The notes under the pieces are model-generated. The model saw nothing but the letters and a program-made list of their open reading frames with translations. It was not told the DNA's origin and made no database searches. A stretch of 23,399 nt of DNA from a virus. This document shows positions 195-7,013 of the stretch, piece by piece; the first letter of the stretch is position 1; every line of letters begins with the position of its first letter. The position numbers and the translations under genes were made by a program. Location of the stretch: positions 1-23,399 of IMG/VR virus record IMGVR_UViG_3300025466_000181; one strand, 5' to 3'.

Positions 195-1232
195 TTATTT
201 AGCAAGTGCCAAAACTTGCTTAACAATTTTATTTTTTTCAGCAGTTAGCACAGGGTCAAAACCACTAGCACCAGCCATGAGTGAATCGCCAGCCTTGCGA
301 GCAGTACGATAATAATCAAGGCGTTCTGTCAGAGCATTTACAACACCCCACGCAGTTCCTTTAATGTTAGCGTTAGTAGGTGAGTTATGATAAAGTTCAT
401 CAAGCATGACAACTTTATTTTCCCACTTTTTAATTGAACCCTTTTTATCGGCTTCAGGCTTTGGATACATTTTGTTAATAATTTCGCTAAACTTAGCGTT
501 ATTAACTTCAATAGCAAACAACTCTTGTGCTTGCTTCTCAAACTCATCAGCGTATGCGAATGTCAAGCCTAGAGCCTCACGAGCAGCCGCAATTTTTCCG
601 TCTACTGTCTGAGTGTGACGAATCTTGAAAGACTGCTTAGCCTTACGCATAGCAAGGTTAAGTGTATTCTGACACATAACACGAACGGGGGTAATTGCAG
701 ACTGAACAGCAACAGAACCATCATGTGAGGTATAAACTACGAGATACAACTTAGTTTCATCATTGACACCATTAGGGTCAAGAACGATTGTGCGTGGAAT
801 AGACATTGTACCGAATACAACACGACCATTCTTTAGAGAACCAGCAGATTCCCAATACACATCTGAATTGCCGTCATGTAGATTGTCAGCGAATGAAAAC
901 AATTCTTCATTCTGAACAGTCTTATAGCGTGAACCTACAACAGAGAGAACATCTTTCTGTCCTGCTGTATAAGGATTATCACGGGTAACGAGAAAGTTCT
1001 CGCCAACTTGATTATAGTTATCACCTAGCAAGTCAGCGACAGGCTCAAGTGCAACATTCCAATTTGAGAGTTTAGCACCCTCAAGCATTTTAGCAGTTGT
1101 TACTTCATCCTCTTTAGAGAATGTAGCATTAGCAAAACTATGCCAAGCGGGATTAGAGCGTAGAGATACAGCGAGTGAAACTTCACCAGACTCAACTTCT
1201 GAGCGATGAACTTGCGACATGACATTTGTCAT
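195..1232 (-). CDS. DUF932 / TIGR03299-type phage-plasmid protein
   Basis: A 345-aa protein that I recognise as a DUF932-family (phage/plasmid-like TIGR03299) protein. The typical central block TPVRVMCQNTLNLAM is present near residue 205, as are an N-terminal region with the conserved W-N pattern and a C-terminal segment in which NIKGTAWGVVNALTE precedes a TARKAGD stretch. The family is widespread in actinophages and plasmids and has no firmly established biochemical role; a link to replication or recombination is often assumed. I chose the ATG at 1232 because AAAGGA lies just upstream and because the -10 box of promoter P1 (1258-1263) would otherwise lie inside the coding sequence. The gene is a single-gene transcription unit closed by the terminator at 169-188. 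Confidence 0.9.
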   Translation of the reverse strand: MTNVMSQVHRSEVESGEVSLAVSLRSNPAWHSFANATFSKEDEVTTAKMLEGAKLSNWNVALEPVADLLGDNYNQVGENFLVTRDNPYTAGQKDVLSVVGSRYKTVQNEELFSFADNLHDGNSDVYWESAGSLKNGRVVFGTMSIPRTIVLDPNGVNDETKLYLVVYTSHDGSVAVQSAITPVRVMCQNTLNLAMRKAKQSFKIRHTQTVDGKIAAAREALGLTFAYADEFEKQAQELFAIEVNNAKFSEIINKMYPKPEADKKGSIKKWENKVVMLDELYHNSPTNANIKGTAWGVVNALTERLDYYRTARKAGDSLMAGASGFDPVLTAEKNKIVKQVLALAK

Positions 1233-1257
1233 TATTTTCCTTTCGTTAAGTAGCCTT

Positions 1258-1287
1258 AGTCTATCATAAGCAACTGACACTTGTCCA
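1258..1287 (-). promoter_or_regulatory. Early promoter P1 with TGTCAG -26 element
   Basis: On the minus strand: TGGACA (1287-1282), TGTCAG (1279-1274), ten bases, then TAGACT (1263-1258) preceded by TGA. It is the most divergent of the eight copies but keeps the exact TGTCAG-N10-TANNNT spacing. It drives the DUF932 gene, leaving a leader of about 20 bases. Confidence 0.65.
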
Positions 1288-1312
1288 CTTCGTAAACTAA
1301 AGTTAAAATACA

Positions 1313-1413
1313 TTTGTCCGATTTGTCCGATTCAGCTCCAGGTGATTAAAATCACATTCGTAACTCGGCGTGTCAGCTTGACACGCTGCGCATTTTTATT
1401 GCATTTTGTCAAG
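1313..1413. repeat. Intergenic inverted-repeat module B
   Basis: This copy holds two tandem TTGTCCGATT blocks (1314-1332), a near-perfect palindrome GTGATTAAAATCAC (about 1342-1355), TTCGTAACTCGGCGTGT, the left arm CTTGACA (1377-1383), TGCGCA (1387-1392) and the right arm TTGTCAAG (1406-1413). It occupies almost the whole gap between the 27-aa ORF and promoter P1. Confidence 0.65.
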
Positions 1414-1414
1414 C

Positions 1415-1498
1415 CTATTTTTTAAATTGTTGAATGACATATGCAACAAGGCCCACAACAATTGTTATGGACCATTGCATAAATATTTTATTCATCAT
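1415..1498 (-). CDS. 27-aa single-pass membrane mini-protein (putative)
   Basis: The ORF begins with ATG overlapping the stop of the upstream Gp88-like gene (ATGA), a typical translational-coupling arrangement. It encodes a hydrophobic core (ITIVVGLVAYVI) between a short N-terminus and a QQFKK tail, so a single transmembrane helix with a positive C-terminus is likely. It is too short for family recognition. A regulator, holin-like or membrane-anchoring role cannot be separated. The stop lies directly beside repeat module B. Confidence rests on the coupling and the clear membrane segment. Confidence 0.5.
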   Translation of the reverse strand: MMNKIFMQWSITIVVGLVAYVIQQFKK

Positions 1499-2235
1499 TT
1501 TTTAGTTGCACTGAAACGGATATCTGCTTTACCAAACACACATAACCCGCATGACACGCAAGCAGAACCATTAGTAGAAATAAGCGGGATAGACTTATTA
1601 TTCTCAGGACACTTAGCCCCTACCTTACCCGTTAATTCTTTCATCTTAGATTCTGTAGCCTTGAAAGTTGTACCTAGATATGCAAGGCGTACATTATGAT
1701 TAGTTTTAAGCCCCGCCCCAATTTCTGCGTTATCATCATCCGTTGAATAATACAGTGAAAGATTCTTTACATCTTTCAAAATAATTGCAGACTCTTCAAC
1801 ACGAGTATAAACCCAAAATTGAACAGAAGGGCGGGATTCAATTACAGTTTTCCACGCATGAGTATAGGTATCATTAAAGAAATCACCATCCCAGTGAATA
1901 CGAAATAACTTAGGTGCATTCTTTTTATCACTATCAATAATGAATTCATCTATCATTACAGTTAGCAATGACACCATAGTATCAAAATCAGCGTCTTTCA
2001 ACAATTCCCAATTATGCAGGAGATTAGCACGAACGCCCTTGAATAACTTTTCAAGTTTTCCCGCATAGCAAACAGATTCACACACACTAGTAGCACCAGG
2101 ACATGAGAATGCTTTACCAGCGGGAAGGCCGAAAGTATTAGCAATAGTAGCAGTCTTTCCATTAGGAGAGACAGCGTTAGCAACTTTTCTATCATTAGAG
2201 CGTTTTAATTTCATAGGCGTTATTGTATCACTCAT
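1495..2235 (-). CDS. Gp88-like Cys-rich phage protein
   Basis: A 246-aa protein resembling the mycobacteriophage 'gene product 88' family. The hallmark LPAGKAFSCPGATSVCESVCYAGK lies near the N-terminus with Cys45, Cys52 and Cys56. A second cluster, Cys209 then Cys226-x2-Cys229-x2-Cys232, lies at the C-terminus. The two clusters could bind zinc or an iron-sulphur centre. The family's activity is unknown to me. The start at 2235 overlaps the previous gene's stop by eight bases (ATGAGTGA). The alternative ATG seven codons later has no better ribosome-binding site, and the open frame extends further upstream only through the overlapping small gene. It belongs to the P2 unit with two other Cys-rich mini-proteins. 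Confidence 0.85.
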   Translation of the reverse strand: MSDTITPMKLKRSNDRKVANAVSPNGKTATIANTFGLPAGKAFSCPGATSVCESVCYAGKLEKLFKGVRANLLHNWELLKDADFDTMVSLLTVMIDEFIIDSDKKNAPKLFRIHWDGDFFNDTYTHAWKTVIESRPSVQFWVYTRVEESAIILKDVKNLSLYYSTDDDNAEIGAGLKTNHNVRLAYLGTTFKATESKMKELTGKVGAKCPENNKSIPLISTNGSACVSCGLCVFGKADIRFSATKK

Positions 2236-2401
2236 CACTGACACCCGCCCAACCAAACATAAACATATCTTGTTGATCATAACACTCATGACACATCCAG
2301 TCGTCACCATAGACATTATACTCAGATTCATCCATCTGAATACTAGCCCCGCAAATTTCATAGAATAGGCAGGCTACTTCAAAGATAGTTTCATCATTCA
2401 T
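2228..2401 (-). CDS. 57-aa Cys-rich mini-protein
   Basis: This short ORF starts at ATG 2401, overlapping the TAA of the upstream gene (TAATG), with an excellent AGAGGAGA ribosome-binding site. It encodes two Cys pairs, Cys11/Cys17 and Cys37-x2-Cys40 (MCHEC), in an acidic protein, which suggests a small zinc-binding fold. Its end overlaps the Gp88-like start. No family is recognised. Operon position between two Cys-rich proteins suggests a shared role, but that is inference. Confidence 0.72.
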   Translation of the reverse strand: MNDETIFEVACLFYEICGASIQMDESEYNVYGDDWMCHECYDQQDMFMFGWAGVSDE

Positions 2402-2628
2402 TATTTAATCTCCTCTAGTGTTAGGCATAGTGGGTTACACTCGCAATAGTCAAAATCAAAATCACCATCAGGAGATACCCAACCAGTAAATCCTTGACCG
2501 TTACAATTATCGCAAGCCTTGAAAATACAAGCCCAGCAAGTAGGTTCGCCAGCATAAGGCAAATCATAGATAGAGATTTCAGAACACTCAACGCCACACG
2601 ACTGGCAGAAGGTTTTTACAGTAGGCAT
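2401..2628 (-). CDS. 75-aa zinc-finger-like protein (DnaJ-type CxxCxGxG)
   Basis: First gene of the P2 unit. It has ten cysteines: C8, C11, C15, C31, C34, C39, C42, C62, C64 and C68. The segment CDNCNGQGFTGW (39-50) matches the CxxCxGxG repeat of the DnaJ central zinc finger, paired with CWAC or the C-terminal CEC. It is therefore a small zinc-binding protein, possibly a chaperone-like adaptor or nucleic-acid binder. I chose ATG 2628 because AAAGGGGC lies 5-6 bases upstream. The in-frame ATG five codons earlier has no ribosome-binding site. Confidence 0.83.
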   Translation of the reverse strand: MPTVKTFCQSCGVECSEISIYDLPYAGEPTCWACIFKACDNCNGQGFTGWVSPDGDFDFDYCECNPLCLTLEEIK

Positions 2629-2658
2629 TTTTGCCCCTTTCATTTTGTTGATAATGGA

Positions 2659-2687
2659 ATTATAGCATAGTGGACTGACACTATCAA
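2659..2687 (-). promoter_or_regulatory. Early promoter P2 with TGTCAG -26 element
   Basis: On the minus strand: TTGATA (2687-2682), a 17-base spacer containing TGTCAGTCC (from 2680), and TATAAT (2664-2659) preceded by TGC. It drives the unit 2628 to 1415. Confidence 0.82.
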
Positions 2688-2695
2688 GTTAATTT

Positions 2696-2793
2696 AAGAT
2701 AAATCGCAGAGATATAAATCACACGCCGTAAACGGCGTGTCGTATTGACAAAGTTACAAAAAATTGCGCACACTTTCAGTTAATTGTCAAGTC
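2696..2793. repeat. Intergenic inverted-repeat module C
   Basis: GATAAATCGCAGAGATATAA is followed by TCACACGCCG and a perfect 7-bp hairpin (CACGCCG/CGGCGTG, 2722-2739). Then come the left arm TTGACAA (2745-2751), the centre TGCGCA (2765-2770) and the right arm TTGTCAAG (2784-2791). It is closest in sequence to module A. The right arm also encodes the last codons of the 37-aa basic ORF. Confidence 0.65.
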
Positions 2794-2893
2794 TATTTTT
2801 ATATTTTTCTTTGCGTGTATATTTCTTTTTATTACGCAGAGGCGTAGCTGCATTGCTACGCCTTAACTCTTGAATTCTCTTTACTTTTTCCAT
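2780..2893 (-). CDS. 37-aa highly basic mini-protein
   Basis: The ORF starts at ATG 2893, four bases after the previous stop, with GAGGAA upstream inside that gene. About 40% of residues are Lys or Arg, especially NKKKYTRKEKYKNR near the C-terminus, so RNA, DNA or ribosome contact is plausible. Codons 10-18 contain a perfect 9-bp inverted repeat (2840-2848/2855-2863) that could form an mRNA hairpin. The C-terminus overlaps repeat module C. Family unknown; last gene of the P3 unit. Confidence 0.6.
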   Translation of the reverse strand: MEKVKRIQELRRSNAATPLRNKKKYTRKEKYKNRLDN

Positions 2894-2897
2894 GATC

Positions 2898-3017
2898 TTA
2901 TTCCTCATCGCTTCCATCGCAAAATTCACAAGTATGATTATCTTCAATATAAATTTCATTATTTTCACCCACAAATTCATTGCAGTTATAAATTCTAGGC
3001 GACTTATAAATTGTCAT
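2898..3017 (-). CDS. 39-aa mini-protein with CxxC pair
   Basis: ATG 3017 lies two bases past the upstream stop, with GAGGAG as ribosome-binding site, one of the best in the window. The protein is acidic and carries Cys12 and the pair Cys30-x2-Cys33 (TCEFC), enough for a small metal site, perhaps as a dimer. No family recognised. Fourth gene of the P3 unit. Confidence 0.7.
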   Translation of the reverse strand: MTIYKSPRIYNCNEFVGENNEIYIEDNHTCEFCDGSDEE

Positions 3018-3019
3018 TG

Positions 3020-3301
3020 TTACTCCTCATATTCATCTGACTCGCACCAAGCATATAGGTGGTGTCCTACAATAATTGCATGAGCGGGTGCAGTTGTCTG
3101 TCCCCGCCAAGTTACTGGTTCAGGTAATTCAATTAGTCGGTCACTATCACTTTCCCAATACGCTTCAATTGCTTCTATGCAAGGTTGCACCATTGATAAC
3201 GGGACGGGTGGATAGTGATTACTTTGCAATTGAATTGCAATAGCATTTTCTAAAGACAAATCTTTCATGTCTGCTAAATCAGTAGCGAAGTTATTTCCCA
3301 T
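3020..3301 (-). CDS. 93-aa conserved phage hypothetical protein
   Basis: The block SNHYPPVPLSMVQPCIEA followed by ELPEPVTWRGQTTAPAHAI resembles a hypothetical protein I associate with actinophage early regions; its function is unknown. The protein is mostly helical-looking with an acidic C-terminus (ESDEYEE). ATG 3301 sits two bases after the previous stop with AAGGTGAG upstream. Its last codons supply the ribosome-binding site of the next gene, so translation is probably coupled. Confidence 0.83.
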   Translation of the reverse strand: MGNNFATDLADMKDLSLENAIAIQLQSNHYPPVPLSMVQPCIEAIEAYWESDSDRLIELPEPVTWRGQTTAPAHAIIVGHHLYAWCESDEYEE

Positions 3302-3303
3302 TA

Positions 3304-3513
3304 TTATTTACTCACCTTCAATAGTGCGAAAGAATTATTTTCATTTAATTCATCTAGGATAGGTTGAATTGCTGGTGCCACTAAAGACTTTAGCATTGAC
3401 TCTAACAATTCAACTTGAGTTTCATATGGGTGGGATAGCAAACTTTTAGCAGTTGGGTGATTCTCATCTAATTCAGTTACAAATTCAAGGCTATGCTTAA
3501 TTAAAATAGTCAT
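3304..3513 (-). CDS. 69-aa hypothetical protein
   Basis: A small, mildly acidic, probably all-helical protein with leucine-rich stretches (VELLESMLKSLVAP, ILDELNENNSFALL). It starts at ATG 3513 inside the stop of the upstream gene (TAATG) with AGAGGAGA in front. No recognised family. Second gene of the P3 unit, co-translated with its neighbours. Confidence 0.82.
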   Translation of the reverse strand: MTILIKHSLEFVTELDENHPTAKSLLSHPYETQVELLESMLKSLVAPAIQPILDELNENNSFALLKVSK

Positions 3514-3797
3514 TAGTTATTCTCCTCTAGGATATTTTGGGTTAGGTTGTCATATTCACGAATTTCATTAGCCATTGTATCAATTTCAGATTCAGATAGC
3601 AAGGCGAAAGTTACATTGGTAGCAGTAATGCTGGCAAGTGTAGCAGAATACTTATACATTAAGTCTGCGATATGATTAAGTTTAGATATATCACCATCAC
3701 ACAATTCAATAGCGATATTACGGGCAGATTCAATTACTTCAGGAAAGATTAGGGCTTCACCCGTTGCTTGCTTAACTTTAAGGGCGGTTACTATCAT
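3513..3797 (-). CDS. 94-aa hypothetical protein
   Basis: First gene of the P3 unit, a soluble, acidic, probably helical protein with no family I recognise. The 3797 start gives a leader of about 30 bases from P3, although no strong ribosome-binding site is seen (AAATGAGAAATA precedes the ATG). A start a few codons downstream is unlikely because no other Met occurs before residue 47. Confidence 0.8.
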   Translation of the reverse strand: MIVTALKVKQATGEALIFPEVIESARNIAIELCDGDISKLNHIADLMYKYSATLASITATNVTFALLSESEIDTMANEIREYDNLTQNILEENN

Positions 3798-3832
3798 TTA
3801 TTTCTCATTTCTTTTGTTGGGTTAATAGTTGA

Positions 3833-3861
3833 ATTATAGCAGGTTGGACTGACATTATCGG
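3833..3861 (-). promoter_or_regulatory. Early promoter P3 with TGTCAG -26 element
   Basis: On the minus strand: CCGATA (3861-3856), a 17-base spacer containing TGTCAGTCC (from 3854), and TATAAT (3838-3833) with TGC in front. The weak -35 hexamer overlaps the stop codon of the preceding gene at 3855-3857. Confidence 0.8.
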
Positions 3862-4061
3862 GTTACGACACGCCTGCCTTCACGATAGAAAGTTTTTGTG
3901 TACATCTTACCATCAGGCAGTGACAAATTGTAGGTGGCATATTCTTTAGCCTCTCCCCAGTCTTTAATATCAAGATATACAGTGAAGGCTGCTAGAGCGT
4001 CACTGAATTGAAAACTATGAAACGGCTTTTCTCCGTCATAGGCAGTTGTGAGTGTATACAT
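3855..4061 (-). CDS. 68-aa hypothetical protein
   Basis: A small, probably beta-rich protein (YTLTTAYDGEKPFHSFQF near the N-terminus, a basic YREGRRVVTR tail). I chose ATG 4061 because AGAAGGAGA lies nine bases upstream, inside the end of the preceding gene. The in-frame ATG at 4070 would sit directly on the ribosome-binding site. It follows the upstream stop by one base (TAATATG). Its stop overlaps the -35 of promoter P3. Family unknown. Confidence 0.8.
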   Translation of the reverse strand: MYTLTTAYDGEKPFHSFQFSDALAAFTVYLDIKDWGEAKEYATYNLSLPDGKMYTKTFYREGRRVVTR

Positions 4062-4062
4062 A

Positions 4063-4302
4063 TTATTCATCTCCTTCTGTGAATACGGCAACAGTAGCAT
4101 AAAAATCCTCAGAGGCAAGGCGATTGCCTACAACAGTAGCAGGGCGAACACGCACGAGATAGGCGTTGCCATTAGTAAAACTGGTATCCTTGCGGAGTTC
4201 AGCAGATTGGATAATTCCCTTACGGGCGGGATTAGAGCGAGATTGGTAAAACTTACCTTCTAGCAAATCCACTATGGAATAAGCACGAGCAGTTGAAATC
4301 AT
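4063..4302 (-). CDS. 79-aa hypothetical protein
   Basis: First gene of the P4 unit. A small beta-rich-looking protein with an N-terminal ARAYSIVDLLEGKFYQSRSN segment and an acidic tail (TEGDE). ATG 4302 is preceded by AAAGGAAG at good spacing. The longer open frame to 4365 would run through the promoter and is rejected. No family recognised. Confidence 0.82.
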   Translation of the reverse strand: MISTARAYSIVDLLEGKFYQSRSNPARKGIIQSAELRKDTSFTNGNAYLVRVRPATVVGNRLASEDFYATVAVFTEGDE

Positions 4303-4330
4303 TTTGACTTCCTTTCTTTGTAATAGTAGG

Positions 4331-4359
4331 AGTATACCATTTTGGACTGACATTATCAA
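4331..4359 (-). promoter_or_regulatory. Early promoter P4 with TGTCAG -26 element
   Basis: On the minus strand: TTGATA (4359-4354), a 17-base spacer containing TGTCAGTCC (from 4352), and TATACT (4336-4331) with TGG in front. An AAATCGGACAT box beside an A/T tract lies 15 bases upstream (4375-4385), the same spacing as at P8. Confidence 0.82.
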
Positions 4360-4370
4360 ATCCAAATTCA

Positions 4371-4502
4371 GGATAAATCGGACATTTTGAAAAATATTTT
4401 TGTGATTAAAATCACATCTGACTGGTCAAAGGTAAATTATGACCATTCTTAATGGCGTGTTGACTTGACAAATTTTGCGCAAAAATTTGGGATCTTGTCA
4501 AG
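4371..4502. repeat. Intergenic inverted-repeat module D
   Basis: GATAAATCGGACAT is followed by an A/T tract, the palindrome GTGATTAAAATCAC (about 4402-4415), an inverted GGTCA/TGACC pair 11 bases apart, GGCGTGTTGA, the left arm CTTGACAA (4464-4471), TGCGCA (4476-4481) inside a longer A/T palindrome, and the right arm TTGTCAAG (4495-4502). It fills the gap between the P5 and P4 units. Confidence 0.65.
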
Positions 4503-4523
4503 CGGGACACGCTGTGTCCCGCT
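4501..4523. terminator. Strong hairpin after the 59-aa gene, likely terminator
   Basis: AGCGGGACAC and GTGTCCCGCT form a perfect 10-bp stem with a 3-base loop, 20 bases past the stop of the minus-strand gene at 4543. On the minus strand it is followed by TTGACAAG rather than a T-run. On the plus strand a long T-rich tract follows. Termination or transcript-end protection are both possible. Confidence 0.5.
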
Positions 4524-4542
4524 AACAATTTATTTTTTTTAT

Positions 4543-4722
4543 TTAGACATTTAGATTTTTGAAACACTCTTCAAAAAATCTGTCAGCATCAAATCGTTCA
4601 TTATCCTCTGCGAACATTACAGAAAAATCATGAACCAAATCCTCAAAAACTTCTAGCTTCATGTCTGCACCATAACTGTTTAGGATTTCTGCAGTTGACA
4701 CATAGTCTTTTCTTGTCATCAT
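4543..4722 (-). CDS. 59-aa conserved phage mini-protein (RKDY...RF family)
   Basis: Begins MTRKDYVSTAEIL after a leading Met and ends FDADRFFEECFKNL. This pattern resembles a small phage and plasmid protein I know only as hypothetical (R-D-Y near the start, RFD..RF..AC near the end). It is acidic and helical. AAGGAG lies about ten bases before ATG 4722. The next codon is also ATG, so either could initiate. It is the last gene of the P5 unit, separated from its upstream neighbour by a perfect hairpin (4747-4771). Confidence 0.8.
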   Translation of the reverse strand: MMTRKDYVSTAEILNSYGADMKLEVFEDLVHDFSVMFAEDNERFDADRFFEECFKNLNV

Positions 4723-4746
4723 TTGATTTTCTCTCCTTGTTATTAG

Positions 4747-4771
4747 GGGCGGGAATTATTTATTCCCGCCC
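4747..4771. other. Perfect 10-bp intercistronic hairpin
   Basis: GGGCGGGAAT pairs with ATTCCCGCCC across a 5-base loop, between two genes of the P5 unit. It is not followed by a T-run in the minus direction and ends about five bases before the next ribosome-binding site. It may act as an attenuator, RNase processing site or mRNA stabiliser. Both arms contain the over-represented GGCGGG word. Confidence 0.6.
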
Positions 4772-4789
4772 AGTTATTATAGCAGTTTT

Positions 4790-4945
4790 TTACTTTGCTC
4801 GCTTGTAACTATAAGTAAGAAAATCCTTTTTATACTTTGCGTTACGATTAGCAGTCTGAACAAGTTGGTGAACCTTTACGGCGTTAGTGTCATTGATTGA
4901 CATTAGTTCACGCTTGTTTTGTGAGATTGTGAAAGTGTATAGCAT
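4790..4945 (-). CDS. 51-aa basic mini-protein
   Basis: Starts at ATG 4945 with AAAGGAT upstream. Begins MLYTFTISQNKRELMS and ends in a basic KYKKDFLTYSYKRAK tail. A net positive charge suggests nucleic-acid contact, but no family is recognised. Second gene of the P5 unit, separated by about 140 bases from the first, a gap that holds an imperfect long hairpin. Confidence 0.72.
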   Translation of the reverse strand: MLYTFTISQNKRELMSINDTNAVKVHQLVQTANRNAKYKKDFLTYSYKRAK

Positions 4946-5001
4946 TTTATTTTTATCCTTTTTGTTAGTTGGGTTAGTGTGAGCAGTTTTGACGAGTCAT
5001 A

Positions 5002-5046
5002 CTCAGGACTCAACTAGTAGATAAACTACTAGCGGTGAGTTGTGAG
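5002..5046 (-). ncRNA. Structured intercistronic RNA element (imperfect long hairpin)
   Basis: On the minus strand three stacked stems, CTCA, ACTCA and CTAGTAG, pair with their complements across a TTTAT loop, with small internal loops between them. It lies in the roughly 140-base gap between the 54-aa and 51-aa genes of the P5 unit, much longer than other gaps within early units. No T-run follows on the minus strand. A regulatory leader or processing site is my guess. Confidence 0.4.
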
Positions 5047-5088
5047 CCTTTTTATAACTTGCTCAGGTTATTTAGCGATTTGCTAAAC

Positions 5089-5253
5089 TTACTTGATTGT
5101 TACAGTTGTCCAACGGTCTGAACCGTCTACTGACAACTTCACACGAGTTGTGCGAGCATTTACGGGTACGATTTCCTTAATTGTTCCCGTTACCTTTGAG
5201 CGTTGTGTTGTGAACAAGTCTCCTACTTGATAAGTACGATTTTCTAGTGTCAT
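5089..5253 (-). CDS. 54-aa mini-protein, probable small beta-barrel
   Basis: First gene of the P5 unit. The sequence YQVGDLFTTQRSKVTGTIKE followed by a strand-rich VKLSVDGSDRWTTVTIK looks like a small SH3-like or KOW-type barrel, a fold common in nucleic-acid-binding mini-proteins. This is inferred from pattern only. ATG 5253 is preceded by AAAAGGAT. It is too short for most gene finders. The P5 -10 box lies about 40 bases upstream. Confidence 0.78.
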   Translation of the reverse strand: MTLENRTYQVGDLFTTQRSKVTGTIKEIVPVNARTTRVKLSVDGSDRWTTVTIK

Positions 5254-5292
5254 TATTTTTTATCCTTTTCTTTTGTTGTTGTTGATAGTTGT

Positions 5293-5321
5293 ATTATAGC
5301 ACAAGGGACTGACATTGTGCT
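5293..5321 (-). promoter_or_regulatory. Early promoter P5 with TGTCAG -26 element
   Basis: On the minus strand: AGCACA (5321-5316), a 17-base spacer containing TGTCAGTCC (from 5314), and TATAAT (5298-5293) with TGC in front. The poor -35 touches the stop codon of the upstream 46-aa gene. Drives 5253 to 4543. Confidence 0.8.
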
Positions 5322-5460
5322 AATGTTTTTTGTGTGTAAAAAAATTATAGTGAACGGTATAGCCTTTGATTTTGTGAGAGTGTGCTACGAAAGTTTTAGC
5401 ATTAGAAATTGACGGGGCAAGGGCAAGAATAATTGCCAGTGTAATTATTTTAGTTTTCAT
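5320..5460 (-). CDS. 46-aa secreted mini-protein with signal peptide
   Basis: The N-terminus has a short basic stretch (MKTK), a hydrophobic core (IITLAIILALAP) and a likely cleavage site after SISNA, a textbook signal peptide. It leaves a mature peptide of about 25 residues rich in His and Lys. ATG 5460 overlaps the stop of the upstream gene (TAATG), with AAGGA nine bases upstream. An in-frame ATG two codons earlier is possible. Role unknown; superinfection exclusion or envelope action are possibilities only. Last gene of the P6 unit. Confidence 0.65.
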   Translation of the reverse strand: MKTKIITLAIILALAPSISNAKTFVAHSHKIKGYTVHYNFFTHKKH

Positions 5461-5570
5461 TACCATTGTTCCTTATCTAAAATCTGCTTGCCCATAGCAT
5501 AGCATAATGGAATTGCCATTGTCAAAATACCCAGCAAAATTAGGCGGGTTATGATTGTTAGAATAATCAT
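5460..5570 (-). CDS. 36-aa single-pass membrane mini-protein
   Basis: A hydrophobic segment spanning roughly residues 2-25 (MIILTIITRL...AIPLCYAM) precedes a short charged tail (GKQILDKEQW), so a single transmembrane helix is expected. ATG 5570 directly follows the upstream stop (TAAATG), with AAAGGTGG in front. It is coupled to the secreted mini-protein downstream, so the pair may work together at the membrane. Family unknown. Confidence 0.65.
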   Translation of the reverse strand: MIILTIITRLILLGILTMAIPLCYAMGKQILDKEQW

Positions 5571-5765
5571 TTATTTAACCACCTTTTCAAGAAACTCAGA
5601 ATAAGAACCTGTGAAGATTGTAAAATCCGCTTCGCTATCTGTTAGCCAGACTGAGATAATCTCTTTTTCGTCATCTAGTTCACGGATTTCATTTACGAGA
5701 AAGTTCTCGCCATTGTGAATAAATAGGCAACCCTTATAGAGTTTTGTAATTAGTGATTTTGACAT
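5571..5765 (-). CDS. 64-aa hypothetical protein
   Basis: First gene of the P6 unit. It alternates short beta-like stretches (CLFIHNGENFLVNEI, EIISVWLTDSEADFTIF) and ends in a helix (YSEFLEKVVK). It looks like a compact soluble domain similar in pattern to small barrel proteins such as the 54-aa neighbour, without a family I can name. The ATG at 5765 has AAAGGAAAT upstream. Confidence 0.8.
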   Translation of the reverse strand: MSKSLITKLYKGCLFIHNGENFLVNEIRELDDEKEIISVWLTDSEADFTIFTGSYSEFLEKVVK

Positions 5766-5795
5766 TTTAATTTCCTTTTCTTTTTTGTTAATTGA

Positions 5796-5824
5796 ATTAT
5801 AGCATAGGGCACTGACATTATTTA
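5796..5824 (-). promoter_or_regulatory. Early promoter P6, exact match to TGTCRGTG-N8-TANNNT
   Basis: On the minus strand: TAAATA (5824-5819), a 17-base spacer containing TGTCAGTG (from 5817), eight bases, then TATAAT (5801-5796) with TGC in front. This copy fits every position of the mycobacterial RecA-independent damage promoter consensus as I remember it. The -35 overlaps the preceding stop codon. Confidence 0.82.
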
Positions 5825-5991
5825 GTCAGGTGCCACCTTGACCATTTGTAGCCATCATAGTCTACACGCTGAATGTTTTGTTCACATTCTTCACAGAATG
5901 TGACTTCAAAATCCATGAAGTTTTCTTGATAGAAGGATACAGCCTCTAGGTGAGGTGTGTGCTTAACGCACTCTTTTGTTAATGTAGTCAT
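5818..5991 (-). CDS. 57-aa Cys/His mini-protein, possible zinc ribbon
   Basis: Single gene of the P7 unit. Cys8 with a nearby His (ECVKHTPH) and the later pair Cys36-x2-Cys39 (FCEECEQN) suggest a four-ligand metal site. The C-terminus is aromatic and basic (YKWSRWHLTK). ATG 5991 has AAAGGTGG at good spacing. The upstream GTG at 6000 overlaps that ribosome-binding site and is rejected. No family assigned. Confidence 0.78.
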   Translation of the reverse strand: MTTLTKECVKHTPHLEAVSFYQENFMDFEVTFCEECEQNIQRVDYDGYKWSRWHLTK

Positions 5992-6023
5992 TTTGACCAC
6001 CTTTCTTTTGTTCTAATAATGGA

Positions 6024-6052
6024 ATTATAGCATAGGGGTCTGACATTCACTC
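6024..6052 (-). promoter_or_regulatory. Early promoter P7 with TGTCAG -26 element
   Basis: On the minus strand: a very poor -35 (GAGTGA, 6052-6047), TGTCAGACC (from 6045), ten bases after TGTCAG, then TATAAT (6029-6024) with TGC in front. The combination of a perfect -26 element with a poor -35 favours an activator-dependent promoter. Confidence 0.8.
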
Positions 6053-6066
6053 ACATTATGTCAAGT
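6039..6066. other. dif-like half-site (XerD arm), tentative
   Basis: ACATTATGTCAAGT at 6053-6066 equals the right half of the actinobacterial chromosomal dif consensus as I remember it. The left (XerC) arm is poorly matched, about 5 of 11. It overlaps the P7 -35 region and sits near module E, which itself contains ATGTCAAG, so it could be a by-product of that repeat family. Confidence 0.25.
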
Positions 6067-6069
6067 AAA

Positions 6070-6244
6070 TATCGGTACAAATCGGACATCTCAAAAAAAT
6101 ATTTTTTGTTTGACTGGTCATAAAAAAAATATGACCAAAATTATCAGCGTGTCGTATTGACAATGTATTTTAACTTAATGTCTTAAATGTCCAAATTGTC
6201 CGATTTTGCGCAAAAAATCGGCGGGATGTCAAGTCAACACGCCG
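6070..6244. repeat. Intergenic inverted-repeat module E (longest copy)
   Basis: AAATCGGACAT beside an A/T tract is followed by the inverted pair GGTCA/TGACC, CAGCGTGTCGTATTGACA (6146-6162), an internal spacer with TGTCCGATT, TGCGCA (6207-6212), and ATGTCAAG (6226-6233) running into TCAACACGCCG. The outer arms form an almost perfect inverted repeat of about 18 bases. It separates the P8 and P7 units. Confidence 0.65.
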
Positions 6245-6356
6245 AATTATTTATTAAATTTAAAATTTTTTTATCTAAGTTTATACAACAATGACAACCA
6301 CAACTAGACATCCATGAATGAATGTCTAGCAGTTCATCTAATTCTTTTTTATTCAT
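6234..6356 (-). CDS. 40-aa Cys-rich mini-protein (putative)
   Basis: The ORF starts at ATG 6356 overlapping the end of the preceding gene. It encodes MNKKELDELLDIHSWM, a CGCHCC cluster (residues 19-24), a hydrophobic helix and a terminal Cys. The stop codon falls inside the right arm of module E. GAGGA is only a few bases before the ATG, so initiation would rely on coupling. The dense Cys cluster argues for a real small metal-binding peptide, but evidence is limited. Confidence 0.42.
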   Translation of the reverse strand: MNKKELDELLDIHSWMSSCGCHCCINLDKKILNLINNSAC

Positions 6357-6549
6357 CTTCCTCATCTTCTTCATCTTGTTCTAGTTGGCTCTCATAGTCT
6401 GATAACCCTACACGGTAGGCGATAGGGTCTAACTCATAGAGTGCCCTGCTAGTGTCATACTCATAGCCTGCTATCATCACAGTTCCGTAAACATCATCTA
6501 ACATCATCTTGTATGACTCTTCAATTTCATAGTCTGTCATCTTTGACAT
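6349..6549 (-). CDS. 66-aa very acidic protein
   Basis: A strongly acidic protein ending in QDEEDEEDE, with a Tyr-rich middle (AGYEYDTSRALYELDPIAYR). ATG 6549 follows the previous stop directly (TAAATG), with GAGGTG upstream. Such acidic small phage proteins can mimic DNA or bind basic host proteins, but nothing here proves it. Third gene of the P8 unit, next to another acidic gene. Confidence 0.8.
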   Translation of the reverse strand: MSKMTDYEIEESYKMMLDDVYGTVMIAGYEYDTSRALYELDPIAYRVGLSDYESQLEQDEEDEEDE

Positions 6550-6699
6550 TTATAGCACCTCATCTAAATCAAAATCGGGGACGGATAGAAACACATCTTG
6601 TGTGTCATCTTCTTCTAGTTCTTCTAGGTACACATCCATAGTGTCTGCTACGGTAGCCCACTTGTCATAGTGGCGGTCTTGTGTGTATTGGTAAGTCAT
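6550..6699 (-). CDS. 49-aa acidic mini-protein
   Basis: MTYQYTQDRHYDKWATVADT is followed by an acidic helix (LEELEEDD) and an acidic tail ending PDFDLDEVL. It lies between two genes of the P8 unit with direct stop-start contact downstream. The ribosome-binding site is weak (AAAAGAGAA). Family unknown. Its charge pattern resembles its 66-aa neighbour, so the pair may share a role. Confidence 0.74.
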   Translation of the reverse strand: MTYQYTQDRHYDKWATVADTMDVYLEELEEDDTQDVFLSVPDFDLDEVL

Positions 6700-6718
6700 T
6701 TTTTAATTCTCTTTTCTT

Positions 6719-6931
6719 TTAGTTGCTTAGTGTTGCATAGTGGTATTGGCATACTGACATTGTAGCGTCATCAACTGACACTAGATAAGTGGAGATAGTG
6801 CTATCACACCCAGCCACATCGCAGCCCATACGGGCGTATGAATCATGAATCTCACAGCCATAGCCGTCACACCACTCATCTCCACAGTCAAGGTCAAAAT
6901 CTACTGCTGGGGTGATGTTCTTTACTGACAT
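6719..6931 (-). CDS. 70-aa Cys-rich zinc-binding-like protein
   Basis: First gene of the P8 unit. Six cysteines (C16, C21, C26, C37, C42, C61) plus His29 and His64 are arranged as CGDEWCDGYGCEIH, GCDVAGCD and CQYHY, compatible with one or two zinc sites. It is overall acidic. ATG 6931 has only a modest AAAAGAGAA upstream. No family recognised. It adds to the set of Cys-rich mini-proteins in this early block. Confidence 0.82.
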   Translation of the reverse strand: MSVKNITPAVDFDLDCGDEWCDGYGCEIHDSYARMGCDVAGCDSTISTYLVSVDDATMSVCQYHYATLSN

Positions 6932-6984
6932 TTTAATTCTCTTTTCTTTTAAGATTTAACACCTTGTTAATTTCTTATAGTGTA

Positions 6985-7013
6985 ACTATAACACGGGGGT
7001 CTGACATTCTCAA
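6985..7013 (-). promoter_or_regulatory. Early promoter P8 with TGTCAG -26 element
   Basis: On the minus strand: TTGAGA (7013-7008), a 17-base spacer containing TGTCAGACC (from 7006), and TATAGT (6990-6985) with TGT in front. AAATCGGACAT with an A/T tract lies 15 bases upstream (7029-7039). Confidence 0.8.

Follow-up and report, generated by a model that had tools for sequence, protein, structure and literature searches.

Which system starts transcription of the leftward, presumed early genes in a viral genome that is packed with short transcription units? This question was addressed for a stretch of 23,399 bases (the window) from a single IMG/VR virus record, IMGVR_UViG_3300025466_000181. An initial annotation had described eight promoters in it (P1 to P8) as sharing TGTCAG-N10-TANNNT, the layout of mycobacterial DNA-damage promoters activated by PafBC, and had proposed a PafBC-like activator of host or phage origin. 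The evidence points to the host: it is quite likely that host PafBC drives early transcription of this freshwater actinophage from promoters of the RecA-independent damage type (RecA-NDp).

The TGTCRG element and its distance from the -10 box

The coordinates of the eight sites proved right, all on the minus strand, and the TGTCAG-N10-TANNNT layout is exact in 8/8, with TGN directly abutting the -10 box (an extended -10) in every one. Over the whole window 10 matches were found, 10 on the minus and 0 on the plus strand, compared with 0.35 ± 0.59 expected over both strands. TGTCAG alone is present in 23 copies versus 11.7 expected; after removal of the 10 promoter copies the remaining 13 are at background, so TGTCAG is not a free-standing operator. 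The triplet following the hexamer is TCC in P2-P5, ACC in P7 and P8, TGC in P6 and TTG in P1. The departure from TG seen in the initial annotation stands, but its count of five sites with CC or GC does not, as CC alone is found in six (P2-P5, P7 and P8). TG directly follows the hexamer in 1/8 named sites and in 2/10 window matches.

The same pattern extends to 80 related viral contigs, collected through GP88, in which the early strand carries 933 copies of TGTCAG-N10-TANNNT and the opposite strand only 2, where about 16 would be expected. Among relatives that are near-complete (100-116 kb), almost every listed site falls inside about 12 kb, and a phage early arm carries 9 to about 18 copies in about 12 kb. 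The gap between the hexamer and a consensus-like -10 is 10 in 353 unique sites, with three or fewer at any of the gaps 6-9 and 11-15. When the hexamers lying 10 bases ahead of TANNNT are counted without bias, TGTCAG (382 unique sites) is the most frequent, followed by TGTCGG (75). Among the 18 one-base variants of TGTCAG, TGTCGG alone is enriched, the others (11 or fewer) being at background. Since only these two hexamers are enriched, the phage element is TGTCRG. TGTCGG is continued by TG in at least 50/75 sites, and after TGTCAG the triplets in 276 non-redundant sites are TGG (78), ACC (61), TCC (31) and TGC (24). As TGG is the commonest continuation family-wide, the suggestion that a related activator might be needed because TG was absent is unnecessary. 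A match of at least 5/6 to TTGACA at a spacer of 16-18 is present in about 17% of the 276 sites (control 3%), a figure that tests the presence of a -35 box and not the need for one.

An independent scan for the pattern mostly recovered this family again, together with contigs that share little or no DNA similarity with it. In the 13.6 kb of contig L129, from a 68.8-kb WhiB-bearing phage, there are seven matches on the minus strand, mostly immediately before short genes, and no protein match to the family. Contig L191 (45% GC) has five TGTCRG-type matches, four of which lie ahead of genes, with a -10 that is not extended; its proteins are only weakly similar to those of the family (29-31%). This 14.9-kb contig is without DNA similarity to the family and also encodes a Mom-family protein and an AAA ATPase.

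PafBC-type promoters and the candidate host

The mycobacterial RecA-NDp motif is tTGTCRgtg-8-TannnT (PMC5656591), and its M. tuberculosis form is a directional TGTCGG or TGTCAG (or TGTCAC)-N10-TA-N3-T (PMC8151990). Its regulator was later assigned to PafBC (PMC8223512). According to PMC11804915, PafBC lets SigA RNA polymerase use such promoters, with PafB reading the -26 motif, PafC contacting SigA domain 4 and the complex inserting between SigA domain 4 and the promoter; the trigger is single-stranded DNA (ssDNA) in the WYL domains. The recognition helix of PafB has two strictly conserved arginines (PMC6789036).

The proposed PafBC-type layout was borne out in spacing, strand, R degeneracy, the usual absence of a -35 and the presence of the element at recA of a candidate host order. 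RecA-NDp promoters have the same TGTCRG(TG), N10 to TANNNT and single orientation, and mostly no canonical -35. Judged by hexamer, degeneracy, spacing and direction, the phage promoters match this type at the sequence level, the TG after the hexamer being variable. They differ from it in being repeated within an early arm, in their near-consensus extended -10, in the ACC or TCC that often follows the hexamer and in having no SOS boxes nearby (none above chance in the window). In the open literature that could be searched, no description of phage promoters of the TGTCRG-N10-TANNNT damage type was found.

PafBC is widespread among actinobacteria in general. The candidate host order, probably 'Ca. 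Nanopelagicales', was reached via a freshwater Actinomycetota metagenome-assembled genome (MAG) and has genomes of mostly 1.0-2.2 Mb. WYL matches are present in 149/151 of its genomes, most often three each; where inspected, the trio consists of a tandem pair and a large multi-domain protein. In both genomes whose locus was read, the pair is a tandem pafB-pafC. At one locus (L225, 231-2977) pafB-pafC directly follows a tRNA methyltransferase-like gene, with no proteasome genes between. No PafB or PafC model of NCBIfam matched the candidate-host proteins and comparison to PDB structures was therefore used, by which PafB of one candidate genome matches the solved PafBC (6SJ9/7P5X) at 1e-45 to 1e-46. 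The same PafB conserves RMFERDK, the segment in which the recognition helix is placed by PMC6789036.

Upstream of recA in this order, YGTCRG-N10-TANNNT is found in 28/28 readable regions, as YGTCRGTG in 27, together with an SOS box in all. The YGTCRGTG form is also located ahead of carD in complete genomes of the order, and it lies before a LysM gene, where an SOS box adjoins it (gene names here are readings of translations), an arrangement like that of M. tuberculosis rv2719c (PMC8151990). The sequence TGTCRGTGATGGCTGGTAGAAT is found in two genomes, G041 and G048 (loci L286 and L313), with A in one and G in the other; in L286 it lies directly before a carD-like gene. One of the three candidate-order genomes searched, G063, has no YGTCRGTG site anywhere.

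Under the PafBC reading, the TGTCRG box would occupy the place of the -26 element that is read by the helix-turn-helix of PafB. With ssDNA bound, host PafBC would slot in between the DNA and sigma-A region 4, allowing the host RNA polymerase to initiate transcription of the leftward genes although a proper -35 is missing, i.e. by sigma adaptation. Possible sources of the ssDNA are the incoming linear genome as it is processed, replication, and host DNA that has been damaged. Binding by PafBC, triggering by ssDNA, early timing and the identity of the exact host are what we infer from these patterns.

Several observations weigh against a host PafBC. A -35-like sequence accompanies about one sixth of the family sites, and the phage -10 boxes are near-consensus and extended, unlike the host TACCTT. 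Only 13/28 candidate-host recA regions have TGTC, 15/28 having CGTC only, and in the phages CGTCAG does not rise above background. TGTCRG-N10 was sought in the early arms of the Streptomyces phages Karimac and Daubenski and not found. The host link through GP88 is weak, with a relative in one candidate-order genome only (51% identity), while the closest GP88 relative (84% identity) is in a MAG labelled as a cyanobacterium that has no WYL protein. This cyanobacterium-labelled MAG is probably misbinned; it holds a 109.9-kb family-member contig (L198), of which 19.8 kb were read and showed 12 motif sites. As to the promoters themselves, the strong extended -10 boxes leave room for PafBC to act as a booster and not as an essential factor, and together with some -35-like sequences they may allow basal activity independent of PafBC.

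Other candidate readers of the element

The initial annotation had left room for a phage-encoded PafBC-like activator. This part of the proposal was not supported, since no WYL domain was found in the window or in 34 relatives (35 records, several >100 kb). A phage sigma factor was also rejected, all matches to sigma region 4 being sub-threshold and short (47-69 aa). As the phages show neither a WYL protein nor a clear sigma factor, the activator would be the host's.

A phage activator unrelated to WYL might nevertheless read TGTCRG beside sigma-A region 4. Candidates are WhiB, which is encoded in 19/29 phage records, including every record >90 kb, a small helix-turn-helix protein adjoining RuvC, or another of the many early phage proteins without a known family. 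The small protein (L303, 1480-1626) has 48 aa, is helix-turn-helix-like, adjoins a RuvC-like gene and weakly matches sigma region 4; weak sigma region 4-like matches of similar size are present in 8/18 phage records. Such an activator would, however, have had to arrive independently at precisely the TGTCRG degeneracy and N10 spacing of PafBC, as used at candidate-host recA, and the same element is found in phages without detectable DNA similarity. A phage-made protein also cannot account for the firing of the first promoters unless it is packaged. This explanation is considered unlikely.

It is still less probable that the sites are ordinary extended -10 sigma-A promoters in which TGTCRG is a spacer feature or a superposed, stoperator-like repressor operator. 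The TGN before a strong -10 in 8/8 window sites and the -35 match in a minority of family sites would fit this reading. However, the hexamer at its one spacing is more conserved than any -35, and the unrelated phage contig L191 keeps TGTCRG without an extended -10. Moreover, the extended phage-like form is rare in the candidate order (4 matches in 8 genomes) and thus no general feature of housekeeping promoters, and a housekeeping promoter of the candidate host was rejected on this ground. For an operator, the repressor site of mycobacteriophage L5 offers a precedent, as it contains TGTCAAG. The stoperators of cluster A mycobacteriophages such as L5 are likewise short asymmetric TGTCA-containing repeats in an arm with gp88-like genes, but the sites described here are tied to a -10 at one spacing, have no free-standing copies as stoperators do, and no repressor was seen. 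The 13 non-promoter copies of TGTCAG, at background relative to the 11.7 expected overall, do not support an L5-type stoperator.

Least probable by our estimate is another host sigma-adaptor of near-identical specificity (another WYL protein, or ClgR): according to a report cited in PMC5656591, ClgR recognises the P1 region of recA in M. smegmatis, and in about one third of the sites TGG is replaced by ACC or TCC, but the motif's regulator was later assigned to PafBC (PMC8223512) and the candidate hosts usually have no more than three WYL matches, namely the tandem pair and, where inspected, the large multi-domain protein.

Phage lineage, promoter positions and biological meaning

No named phage has DNA similarity at megablast sensitivity. 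WhiB argues that the family members are actinophages, and by ribonucleotide reductase, DnaE and DUF932 the closest named relatives are Streptomyces phages of the Stanwilliamsviridae, with identities of 66% for ribonucleotide reductase and 53% for DUF932 (window) and 57% for DnaE (relative G030); GP88 is closest to Mycobacterium and Streptomyces phages. Stanwilliamsviridae (Karimac, Daubenski, Evy, Yaboi and Coruscant) share the gene order at family level (glycosyltransferase, ribonucleotide reductase, leftward arm with GP88 and DUF932/DUF945-type genes) and the many short leftward transcription units. The gene order of the leftward block of the window is also found in Karimac and Evy, and it is from gene order that these genes are presumed to be early. 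In contrast to the family described here, the five Streptomyces members, when pooled, have a -35 box (TTGACA, TAGACA) at 17 bases. As the Streptomyces relatives have a -35 and lack the motif, the freshwater branch differs in promoter type.

The sites and the block that they serve are given in Table 1. Two matches were absent from the initial annotation, of which the tenth is probably a coincidence.

Table 1. Positions of the TGTCAG-N10-TANNNT matches and of the leftward block in the window (ORF, open reading frame)
Feature	Position	Strand	Sequence	Context
P1	1258..1279	minus	TGTCAGTTGCTTATGATAGACT	Precedes DUF932 gene 195-1232 (start inferred from ribosome-binding sequence)
P2	2659..2680	minus	TGTCAGTCCACTATGCTATAAT	Good -35-like TTGATA; operon with GP88
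P3	3833..3854	minus	TGTCAGTCCAACCTGCTATAAT	Precedes ORF 3513-3797
P4	4331..4352	minus	TGTCAGTCCAAAATGGTATACT	-35-like TTGATA; precedes ORF ending at 4063
P5	5293..5314	minus	TGTCAGTCCCTTGTGCTATAAT	Without -35; precedes ORF 5089-5253
P6	5796..5817	minus	TGTCAGTG-N8-TATAAT	Full published RecA-NDp form; precedes ORF 5571-5765
P7	6024..6045	minus	TGTCAGACCCCTATGCTATAAT	Without -35; precedes ORF ending at 5818
P8	6985..7006	minus	TGTCAGACCCCCGTGTTATAGT	With TTGAGA; precedes ORF 6719-6931
Ninth site	6759..6780	minus	TGTCAGTTGATGACGCTACAAT	Probable promoter of ORF 6550-6699
Tenth match	2222..2243	minus	TGTCAGTGATGAGTGATACAAT	Overlaps stop/start junction before GP88
Leftward block served by the promoters	195..6931	minus		Small genes, DUF932, GP88; presumed early

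The window has other intergenic repeats. CRP-like palindromes lie at 85-100, 1341-1356, 2708-2723 and 4401-4416 (TGTGATTAAAATCACA, exact at 4401), upstream of P1, P2, P4 and a possible left-end promoter; in total they are no more frequent in the window than chance predicts. Elements of the form TTGACA ... TGTCAAG, mostly with TGCGCA in the middle, recur at 118-157, 1372-1413, 2742-2791, 4459-4503 and 6150-6234, and alongside them TTGTCCGATTT repeats occur in the larger intergenic stretches.

Strong housekeeping promoters are the normal starting point of lytic phages. In the present case, an entire early arm seemingly needs, or is boosted by, a DNA-damage activator of the host. On balance it is probable that a widespread group of freshwater actinophages, in at least two to three lineages without detectable DNA similarity, has put its early programme under host, ssDNA-sensing PafBC, so that the damage alarm fires the early genes. 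If true, this would be sigma adaptation exploited by a virus; it would explain the timing of early genes in phages of streamlined freshwater actinobacteria, and infection would be predicted to depend on ultraviolet light or on the pafBC status of the host. TGTCRG-N10-TANNNT may serve as a sequence marker for actinophages using the system, and the results suggest that the role of PafBC among freshwater actinobacteria is broad. In this large family of freshwater viruses, nearly every early gene has a promoter of the very signature by which the bacterial hosts turn on DNA-repair genes such as recA. Read from sequence, the promoters suggest that these viruses use the damage alarm of the host as their own start signal.

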